In this document: piece after piece, positions 14,553 through 20,786 of the stretch
Numbering within the stretch: the first letter of the stretch is position 1
Layout: each line of letters begins with the position of its first letter
DNA from: an uncultured Methanobrevibacter sp.
GTDB lineage: Archaea; Methanobacteriota; Methanobacteria; Methanobacteriales; Methanobacteriaceae
DNA length: 60,938 nucleotides
Direction of reading: 5' to 3'
Assembly (NCBI GenBank): GCA_900314635.1
Contig: OMVY01000017.1
Coordinates: 1-60,938, forward strand
Program-made: the position numbers and the translations under genes
Notes under the pieces: model-generated
What the model was told of the DNA's origin: nothing
What the model saw: only the letters and a program-made list of their open reading frames with translations
The model's database searches: none

Positions 14553-17154
<2,602 letters not shown>

Positions 17155-17706
17155 ATGAGGATTCTGATATCAAATCTAAAGGGAAAGGCATTGCTCAACA
17201 TAGCAATGAAAAATGGAGTGGACAAACTGATTTCAGTTTATTCCACATACAATGAAACAAGCCTTCTGGACCAGTACATTACAAAGGAGAACATTAAGCT
17301 TGAGACAACAAATGCCATTGAAGCCTGCCAGAGGCTGAGTGAAATTACAAGAAGAGCCATAAATGAAGCTGACGAAGTTTACGTTGCAACAGACGGCGAA
17401 TTCATAGGATCAATTTTGAATTTTGTAGCAAACAAGGAGGATGTAAACAGCATATATTATTATTTCAACAATCAAATCATCCATATGCCCAAACTCAGCT
17501 TGAACGTGTCCAAGACCAAGCTCAAGATATTGAAAACATTGCAAGACGGCGATCAGACAGCAATTCTTATTGGAAAAAATGTTTCCATATCCAGGTCTAT
17601 GGTTTACAAACACATCAACAGCCTTATGGAAGAAGGATTAGTTGCTCAGAGAAAACAATACGAGAAATTCTACCTCACCGACGCCGGAAGAATGCTCATA
17701 ATTTAA
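17155..17706 (+). CDS. Winged-helix regulator with a possible CARF-like sensor domain
   Basis: This protein has 183 residues. The N-terminal part (1 to about 110) reads like a small Rossmann fold: MRILISNLKGKALLN..., then alternating strands and helices, with EVYVATDGEFIGSILNFVA near residue 83. The C-terminal part (about 120-183) is a winged helix: a KTKLKILKTLQDGDQ helix, SRSMVYKHINSLMEEGLV as the recognition region, and a KFYLTDAGRMLI wing. This order resembles Csa3-type CARF regulators that sense cyclic oligoadenylate, but no cas gene is in the window. It could equally be an ordinary MarR- or ArsR-like regulator. The frame opens at TTG 17128, but ATG 17155 has AGTGAT three bases before it. 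Its last codons are copied downstream. Confidence 0.55.
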   Translation: MRILISNLKGKALLNIAMKNGVDKLISVYSTYNETSLLDQYITKENIKLETTNAIEACQRLSEITRRAINEADEVYVATDGEFIGSILNFVANKEDVNSIYYYFNNQIIHMPKLSLNVSKTKLKILKTLQDGDQTAILIGKNVSISRSMVYKHINSLMEEGLVAQRKQYEKFYLTDAGRMLII

Positions 17707-18127: not shown

Positions 18128-19069
18128 TCATTTTAATTTTTCATTTTGATATTTACCATAATAATTTTACAAACCACCAAAAAATATCCCATAATATTCA
18201 TGGAACCATAATAACACCACCAAAGCATAATAAATCAAAATGAGTATAAAACCCAATAAATATTTTTTCCATTATTCAAAATATTATCTCTATTTTTAAA
18301 ACATTGATATTAAAATATTTTCATGTCAATTAAATTTAACTTTAAAAGTAAAAATAAGGATATATAAATAAAAAAAAGCCTTAAAAAATATTTTTAGCAA
18401 AATAAATAATATCTTCTATCTAAAGTCCCAATTATAATAATATTACAGAATAAAATAGAAAATTTTATATGTTATCAATACATACTATTATACGATGTGT
18501 AAAAAAATACATATCATAAAAATGAAATTACAACCATTTTATAATCTCCAATATAAAAATTTAATTTCATTATCACAAGATATTTGGAATTATCCTATTG
18601 ATAAAGCCCTATAAAATTACCTTAAAACTTTACTTTGTTTCTTATAAATATGTTAAATTACCTTAAAACTTCTTATTTATACCAAAATATAAATAACCCT
18701 AAATTACCTAAATATATAAAACTTGATTATCAATTGATAATTCCCAAATATCTTTAACTTTTTTTAAAATGATCCTAATCACACAATTATTTAAAAAAAA
18801 ACCACACCAACACCACAAAAAACCAGCAAAAAACTATTAAAAAAAAAATTATAATTTTTTCCAATATTTCCTTATTTTGAAAAAAAGAAACTTGAAAAAA
18901 TGTAAATTCATCAACAAAAACCAACAAAGAATGAAAAAAAGTACAAATTTAAAAATAGAAACTAAATTGAGACCTATTCCAACAAGTAATAATTTTTAGC
19001 TGATTTTTTAATATAATAGTAATATTTATTAATATAAAAAATGTAAAGTAATAATAAGGATTAACATCC
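18128..19069. other. Gene-poor A+T-rich gap
   Basis: No gene is visible. The stretch holds a 17-base direct repeat AAATTACCTTAAAACTT at 18614-18630 and 18655-18671, and a perfect 16-base palindrome ATTATCAATTGATAAT at 18726-18741. I see no open frame with a ribosome site. Confidence 0.5.
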
Positions 19070-19230
19070 ATTGGATTTTATGAACCGAATTTAAATTATT
19101 AAATTTTTTCATATTTAGAACATAGTTGGGTCTTTTATAATTAAATTATAAAGGATTGGATGACAAATTTTATCAAAAAAAGTAGAAACTAACAACAAAC
19201 ACGCTATGTTCTAAAATCCAATCTTTTTTT
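19070..19230 (+). ncRNA. Candidate structured RNA (or hairpin-type mobile remnant)
   Basis: Nested complementary arms define a stem. ATTGGATTTTA (19070-19080) pairs with TAAAATCCAAT (19212-19222), and TTTAGAACATAG (19114-19125) pairs with CTATGTTCTAAA (19204-19215), so the stems overlap by a few bases. An AT-only hairpin (19134-19152) sits inside. A T7 run follows at 19224-19230, and a TATA-like TTAATATAA at about 19029-19037 would place transcription start near 19060. No protein is encoded. A short transposon remnant with inverted ends is an alternative. Confidence 0.35.
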
Positions 19231-19343: not shown

Positions 19344-20141
19344 TTACAAATCATCCAGAATCTCTCTAGGAGCTCCAGCCACTTCCACCAAATACTCTGC
19401 TTCAACAATATGAAGTTCTGATGGAATGACTATGCAATGAAGGGGTCCTCCAAAATCAAAATCAATCAAATCTCTGATATAACCTGCTTTTACAATATTG
19501 TCCACGGATCCAACTCTTGCAATTCCAACAGCCAATGTATCTTCCTGAATCATGCCCTCATAATCCAGATTGTCCTTTATTGTCATGAGGTTTTCAAGAC
19601 CCTCGTTGATGGTCATGTACTTGTCTTTATGGGCTTGAATGTCCAGAAGGACCAGGGTATGCATGTTCATTTTCAGATTCTCTTCAATGGCAATATACGG
19701 AGACTTCGGGAAATAATTGTATTCCAAATCAGGAAACGGAATTGTTGTAACCTTTCCAAACTTGTATGCCTGAAGACCTGAAATAGCCGGAGCTGATGAT
19801 ATGATTGAAGATCCATGAATCACCTGGAAGTCAATGCCTCTTTTCGCACATTCCACTAGGAAGTCTGAATGGGTTGTGGCAATCAACGGATCGCCGCCGG
19901 TGATAAGGGCGACATCCTCATCTTTTGCCTCTTCCAGAAATACTGATTCCTCCTCCACCTGAGTCCTGTCCAGGATAGTAATTTCTTTGCCGATCAGCTC
20001 TTCTATTGATTCAAAGCTGGAACCAAAGAGGCGGGAAGTAAAGAATTCCGCATAAACCTTATCCACATTCTTCAAGGTTTCCAAACCTTTTAAGGAAATG
20101 TCCTTGCTGTCAAATAATCCAAGTCCGACTAAATAAAACAT
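19344..20141 (-). CDS. dphB: Diphthine synthase
   Basis: This SAM-dependent methyltransferase of 265 residues modifies a histidine of elongation factor 2 during diphthamide synthesis. It has the tetrapyrrole-methylase-like fold: MFYLVGLGLFDSKDISLKGL at the N-terminus, VALITGGDPLIATTH near residue 78, HGSSIISSAPAISGLQAYKFG near 110 and a C-terminal GGPLHCIVIPSELHIVEAEYL. Length and blocks match archaeal Dph5. The ATG at 20141 lies about 40 bases after a structured leader element followed by U8, so expression may be controlled by premature termination. Confidence 0.93.
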   Translation of the reverse strand: MFYLVGLGLFDSKDISLKGLETLKNVDKVYAEFFTSRLFGSSFESIEELIGKEITILDRTQVEEESVFLEEAKDEDVALITGGDPLIATTHSDFLVECAKRGIDFQVIHGSSIISSAPAISGLQAYKFGKVTTIPFPDLEYNYFPKSPYIAIEENLKMNMHTLVLLDIQAHKDKYMTINEGLENLMTIKDNLDYEGMIQEDTLAVGIARVGSVDNIVKAGYIRDLIDFDFGGPLHCIVIPSELHIVEAEYLVEVAGAPREILDDL

Positions 20142-20181
20142 AATATCAACTAATAATTTTTAAAATGAGAAAATAACTAAT

Positions 20182-20245
20182 AAAAAAAAGGACGCCTACC
20201 TAACACAGGCCCACCATAAACCTGCTCATCACGTTAGGAGCATCC
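20182..20245 (-). ncRNA. Structured leader element of dphB with U-tract
   Basis: Read on the minus strand, GGATGC pairs with GCGTCC, CCTAAC with GTTAGG, and GCAGG with CCTGT around an 11-base loop. A seven-base bulge GTGATGA lies between the second and third stems. U8 follows directly. Two positions are G-U on this strand but would be A-C mismatches on the plus strand, so the RNA is read toward dphB. The segment is far richer in G+C than its surroundings. It could be a terminator-type regulator or an independent small RNA. I do not recognise a known riboswitch class. Confidence 0.55.
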
Positions 20246-20275
20246 TTTTTACACCATACATCACCACTTTATTTT

Positions 20276-20303
20276 AAAAAAAAAGTGTGCTACTTAAAGT
20301 AGC
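20276..20303 (-). terminator. Hairpin followed by U9 upstream of the dphB leader element
   Basis: On the minus strand the hairpin GCTACTTTAAGTAGC (20303-20289) is followed by ACAC and nine T's. With the element at 20182-20245 this makes two hairpin and U-tract modules in series before dphB. A TATA-like TTTATAAA at about 20349-20356 could be their promoter. Confidence 0.45.
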
Positions 20304-20455
20304 AATTAATATTTTTAATTTTATCATATTTAAGTTTAATCTGTCTCCTTTATAAATGATTATTTAAAGATAAAAATTTAAAAAAATAATTAAAAATCAA
20401 TATTAAGATAAATAAAAAATTTTAAGAATGGTTTTTACTTTTAATAGCCTTTAAC

Positions 20456-20584
20456 AAGAAAAAAAATATAATAATACACATCCCTTTTCAAAACCCTAAA
20501 AAAGAAAAAAATATAATAATACACATCCCTTTTCAAAACCCTAAAAAAGAAAAAAATATAATAATACACATCCCTTTTCAAAAC
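20456..20584. repeat. Three-copy 45/46-bp tandem repeat
   Basis: The unit contains AATATAATAATACACATCCC followed by TTTTCAAAACCCTAAA. Copies begin at 20456, 20502 and 20547, the last one partial. The first two are nearly identical. The array lies in the divergent gap between dphB and trm5. The rest of that gap, to 20786, shows no gene. Confidence 0.9.
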
Positions 20585-20786
20585 ATTATCAAAAAAAATA
20601 GCAAGACCCAATATTATAAAAACAGGAAATATCTAAAAAATATAATAATAAAAAAGCACATATTAATTATAGAAATATCCTAAAAATAAATTCATAATTT
20701 TAATGAAAATAAAGCTTGAATAAAACAATTTAAATCAAAACAAATGCTTTTTACTAATCCACAAAATCAATCATATTAAAGATAAC

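Follow-up and report, generated by a model that had tools for sequence, protein, structure and literature searches.

The DNA directly upstream of dphB, the diphthine synthase gene of an uncultured Methanobrevibacter sp., raises the question of whether this gene is governed by its own leader RNA or lies beside an independent RNA gene. Few RNA regulators have, to our knowledge, been described in archaea; our literature searches found no published report of the element described here and, in the searchable literature, no RNA regulator of the pathway that modifies EF2 with diphthamide. A putative leader that is almost unchanged in sequence throughout a genus of rumen methanogens, and is tied to one translation-factor gene, would offer a concrete site at which to test archaeal attenuation and the signal controlling EF2 modification. 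Here we analyse this locus within a 60,938-nt stretch of DNA (the window) and compare it with related genomes.

Anatomy of the element

The RNA element upstream of dphB comprises about 127 nt of the minus strand (20308-20182) and is larger than first described. It is composed of helices P1, P2 and the terminator-like P3, followed by a U8 tract, together with an unpaired strand. Counting the promoter and P1, the unit reaches to about position 20337, and the entire unit is kept in relatives. Its features, and those that follow it, are these:

20324..20337, minus strand: BRE/TATA-like promoter AAACTTAAATATGA, 29 nt 5' of P1
20288..20304, minus strand: P1 hairpin UGCUACU-UUA-AGUAGCA, at the predicted RNA 5' end
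20265..20287, minus strand: P2 hairpin CACUUU-UUUUUUAAAAU-AAAGUG, which holds a U9 run
20250..20265, minus strand: conserved unpaired strand GGUGAUGUAUGGUGUA, its first G common to P2 and its last A to P3
20185..20250, minus strand: P3, a long terminator-like stem with a one-sided bulge of 7-10 nt and a conserved apical loop, UUAUGGUGG
20182..20189, minus strand: U8 tract, predicted terminator (U7-U9 in 16/16 loci)
20142..20181, minus strand: 40-nt spacer from U8 to the dphB start codon, with no promoter-like score (2.0)
19344..20141, minus strand: dphB, diphthine synthase (Dph5); TIGR00522, 327.6 bits against a cutoff of 114.3

Much of what a first-pass annotation of this DNA had proposed is borne out by these features. 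The gene is indeed dphB by its TIGR00522 match, the hairpin with its U8 tract is present at 20185-20250 (U8 at 20189-20182), and the element is as compact and G+C-rich as described, the G+C content of 20190-20245 being 55%, that of the intergenic DNA around it 17% and that of the whole window 34%. The second hairpin and U9 that had been placed upstream also exist (20304-20288, then U9), except that this U9 is no simple terminator tail, being partly sequestered in P2 (CACUUU/AAAGUG). The stretch that separates the element from trm5 contains an A+T-rich repeat of 45 nt, ACACATCCCTTTTCAAAACCCTAAAAAAGAAAAAAATATAATAAT, three times in tandem (window 20452-20598).

The same annotation held that the RNA is read toward dphB. 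When positions 20150-20320 are folded, the minus strand reaches -47.2 kcal/mol (z -4.7), with 0/200 shuffles as good, while the plus strand reaches -30.5 kcal/mol (z -4.0), its stem not being followed by a U-tract. The minus strand is thus the better RNA, given both its lower energy and the missing U-tract on the other strand.

Conservation and compensatory change

Measured at the fourfold-degenerate sites of dphB, the window differs from its relatives at 53-73% of positions, close to saturation. Against this background, an alignment of the window with 13 closer relatives shows no difference in the blocks AAAATAAAGTGGTGATGTATGGTGTAAAAAGG and AGCAGGTTTATGGTGGGCCTGTGTT; between the window and these relatives the unpaired strand, the apical hairpin of P3 and the 5' arm of P3 as far as AAAAAGG are identical. 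Because such long blocks are identical despite the divergence of the neighbouring gene, their conservation exceeds neutral expectation. The unpaired strand is identical in 15/16 loci, the exception being L023, which is short of one U; in this divergent copy most of the helix sequence is altered, but GGTGATG-ATGGTGTAAAAAGG and the UGGUGG loop motif are retained. A conserved protein is disfavoured as the cause of this pattern, since the indels are not multiples of three.

The helices, on the other hand, change on both sides. By hand alignment, 5/7 pairs of P1 differ on both sides between the window and its relatives (UAGCUGU/ACAGCUA), and in P3 the window, L023 and the other copies differ from one another by two-sided changes in pairs 8, 9, 10 and apical pair 4; all of these compensatory changes are supplied by two diverged lineages, and an automatic alignment, which hid most of them, showed only 3 such pairs. 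In P2, pair 2 is A-U in the window and G-U in relatives, and the U-run is at least 8 long in 16/16 loci, with the hairpin rebuilt in a different sequence in L023. The spacer to dphB is 62-155 nt long in relatives and unconserved except for ATTAATCTATTTTTA. The first-pass annotation had staked its reading on conservation and covariation in relatives; the 16 loci show the conservation, and P1 and P3 the compensatory changes. Taken together, the alignments point to a conserved structured RNA, its fold maintained by two-sided substitutions in these two helices.

Distribution and linkage to dphB

Genus loci were fetched by dphB protein homology. The 15 genus genomes with an assembled dphB all have the element immediately before that gene, and four genus genomes without it likewise lack a full-length dphB match. 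A sixteenth copy lies on contig C27 of G054 (locus L054; public record RUG012, L124) alongside a second dphB, whose product shares 88% identity with that of the window; as that genome is placed in another genus, mis-binning of the contig is probable. In 16/16 loci the element occurs as a single copy per genome, on the strand of dphB and directly upstream of it. The single copy led us to reject a regulator of multiple genes.

Covariance-model searches of 139 family genomes, of 37 genomes with laxer filters and of 152 genomes of the class Methanobacteria found no convincing element elsewhere in the 152. The weak matches in other genera (best E 5e-4) we read as chance; several are ordinary hairpin and U-tract ends, such as that following a PPIase gene in L099. 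Scans of genome and viral contigs, with patterns too short to be specific, gave mostly chance matches, along with two records named Methanobrevibacter (M. olleyae SIG14, RUG012). In the other genera examined, the regions upstream of dphB contain no such element, and dphB there is often directly divergent from trm5. The expectation of a feature shared across Methanobacteriales therefore fails, the element being found in one genus.

Within that genus the upstream neighbour varies among trm5, a MATE exporter, a gene of aldo/keto reductase-ferredoxin type and an FMN reductase (names other than trm5 being our reading of translated gene ends), while element and dphB stay together. The window has the divergent dphB/trm5 order and branches first within the genus on the dphB tree (support 90/77), from which it follows that the element was probably already present in the genus ancestor. 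It defines an RNA family missing from Rfam. A separate observation comes from L101 (G024, another genus), in which dphB and trm5 are once more divergent and a hairpin of different sequence (z -5.7) occupies the region from about 130 to 50 nt before dphB; it lies downstream of a TATA-like box, ends in U8 and is possibly an independent terminator-type dphB leader.

Promoter and termination signals

A promoter matrix was built from 15 tRNA promoters of the window genome, and its random best-of-60 scores reach 7.9 at 95% and 10.1 at 99%; promoter and ribosome-site statistics cover the window and the fetched loci. In 14 relatives, boxes of the AACCTTTAAATAT type stand at -28/-29 of P1 with scores of 9.3-14.5. 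The copy in the window is weaker, at 5.3, and stands at the same spacing. Among ordinary genes of the window, 5/35 upstream regions reach a score of 9, with a median of 5.5.

U-tracts are the signal for archaeal transcription termination, for which a hairpin is not strictly needed (PMC8716108). From this rule and the TATA spacing, the transcript is predicted to begin at P1 and to end after P3, at about 127 nt. Since a hairpin is not strictly required, part of the transcription might also end at the U9 run in P2.

The element as a proposed attenuating leader

Each component of a leader is seen here: a promoter upstream, a terminator-like end formed by P3 and U8 before the gene, and dphB downstream in 16/16 loci. 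Because the same fold, with its own promoter and built-in stop, always precedes dphB, we consider that the dphB gene of rumen-type Methanobrevibacter is probably switched by RNA. To the more specific reading, in which the element is a 5' leader of dphB that attenuates transcription, we give an even chance. It is favoured by the constancy of the linkage between element and dphB while the upstream neighbour changes. In the window, moreover, a separate canonical dphB promoter is unlikely, as the 40-nt spacer cannot fit a BRE/TATA (about -36 to -23) together with a ribosome-binding leader. The absence of a spacer promoter is weak evidence in relatives, in which 62-155 nt leave room for one and ordinary genes score low.

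In such a leader, RNA polymerase would start about 29 nt after the TATA box and make an RNA consisting of P1, P2, the unpaired strand and P3. By default it would presumably stop at U8, giving only the short RNA of about 127 nt. An effector bound to the unpaired strand, the P3 apical loop or both would keep the AAAAAGG arm from closing P3, the rest of which would then be parted from the U-tract, allowing readthrough into dphB. Our preference for this putative effector is a protein or the translation machinery, with feedback on diphthamide synthesis.

Folding is consistent with parts of this scheme. P3 folds in all members, its closing stem being worth about 10-14 kcal/mol, and covering GGUGAUG...AAAAAGG strips away the base of P3 adjacent to U8 for that same cost (9/9 sequences folded). 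With the strand and the AAAAAGG arm covered, the remainder of P3 stays folded in 8/9 sequences and refolds in L014. Breaking P3 may nevertheless not stop termination, since the archaeal hairpin is not strictly needed (PMC8716108). A well-conserved competing antiterminator helix was not found; a candidate antiterminator that pairs the U-run with AAAAAG has just 6-7 bp and is weak and of low specificity.

Bacterial terminator-type attenuators and riboswitches share with the element their 5' position, a structured RNA and a terminator-like stem with a U-tract before a coding gene, whereas the element is archaeal and has neither a known ligand, a sequence or Rfam match, nor a well-conserved antiterminator helix. 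Closer to home, the U-tract terminators and regulated internal termination of M. maripaludis also place a U-tract stop inside a transcription unit; there the stop lies between operon genes, while here the U-tract ends a conserved fold in a leader (PMC8716108, PMC10450193).

Ligands, ribosomes and known RNA families

DphB uses SAM. The first-pass annotation had accordingly thought SAM or SAH sensing conceivable, and a metabolite riboswitch controlling dphB would suit the leader position, the folded RNA and the terminator. Searches of the window and relatives with Rfam covariance models returned nothing at gathering score, the below-threshold matches being unrelated; neither a riboswitch family nor any other was matched, and a SAM riboswitch or other Rfam family was rejected on this ground. 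The one-sided bulge of P3 varies in sequence, and while SAM riboswitches typically regulate numerous genes, the element is confined to a single gene of a single genus. We find no support for SAM or SAH sensing and regard a metabolite riboswitch as very improbable.

Archaeal C/D box sRNAs carry a box C, RUGAUGA, and a box D, CUGA. In the window and L010 alone, the bulge reads GUGAUGA and so resembles a box C; elsewhere it varies (AAUUUAUA, GUUCUAGA etc.), no CUGA box is seen, and there is no Rfam match at gathering score. A box C/D RNA or k-turn was rejected because the bulge is not conserved.

A ribosome could itself be the sensor if the minimal leader ORF AUG-GUG-UAA were translated, the ribosome covering the AAAAAGG arm, blocking the terminator and coupling dphB to EF2 activity. 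The sequence AUGGUGUAA after GGUGAUG is kept in 16/16 loci, including L023 with its lost U, and the stop codon abuts the P3 arm. RNA structure or binding would account for this conservation equally well, and the distance from GGTG to ATG is 4 nt (3 in L023) rather than the usual 5-8: among 28 GGTG-type starts in the genus loci it is 5 nt in 14, 6-8 nt in 12, 4 nt in 1, 3 nt in 0 and 2 nt in 1. Disfavoured by this wrong ribosome-binding-site spacing, the mini-ORF strikes us as distinctly improbable.

A second conserved RNA and the free-standing alternative

On the far side of dphB, past its stop codon, lies a second conserved fold of about 171 nt (window 19058-19228, plus strand; z -4.3), convergent with dphB and found at the same place in those genus loci that extend far enough. 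It is marked by the motifs GGAUUAACAUCC, AGAACAUAG...CUAUGUUCU, GUAGAAACUAACA and CCAAUCUUUUUUU and ends in a U-tract. The pairing of AGAACAUAG with CUAUGUUCU has some two-sided changes; in the whole RNA 4 pairs show them, a number as high being reached in 1/500 shuffles. A search for it used a 17-mer pattern. It has no Rfam match, and its model finds none near dphB in another genus. We regard it as a candidate conserved structured RNA, clearly free-standing in its arrangement.

The presence of such an RNA beside dphB raises the odds that the upstream element, too, is free-standing: an sRNA gene with its own promoter and terminator, placed upstream of dphB by chance or co-inheritance. Its unpaired GGUG motifs could let it act in trans, for instance as mimics of ribosome-binding sites or by binding a protein, with dphB then read from a weak promoter in the spacer. 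The stable-RNA-type promoter, the hairpins at both ends and the U8 end would suit an RNA of this kind, as would the peak of conservation in unpaired sequence, the resemblance of GGUGAU to ribosome-binding sites upstream of genes here, the longer spacers in relatives, and the similar style of the RNA across dphB (about 170 nt, a TATA-like box and a U-tract), which cannot be a leader. Against it stand the window spacer, whose 40 nt from U8 to the ATG would not accommodate a canonical promoter of dphB's own, and the 16 loci themselves, in none of which the element is separated from dphB although the upstream neighbours change. An independent sRNA gene is, in our judgement, a serious contender that probably does not apply.

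The two functions need not compete, as a terminated dphB leader could double as an sRNA. In Rli51 of Listeria, a leader that doubles as a trans-acting sRNA (PMC11394854), a short terminated 5' UTR RNA could likewise do both; Rli51 has no homology to the element.

To return to the attenuating leader, its boldest form would have two undescribed RNAs bracket dphB and the upstream one read the translation machinery through GGUGAUG, whether as EF2/diphthamide or as ribosome availability. We think this unlikely; if true, it would amount to a feedback circuit for diphthamide synthesis. The second RNA adjoins the first as a further family absent from Rfam. Elsewhere in the window, at 17128-17706, a Csa3-like CARF/HTH regulator (below the NCBIfam cutoff) lies beside a long intergenic region.
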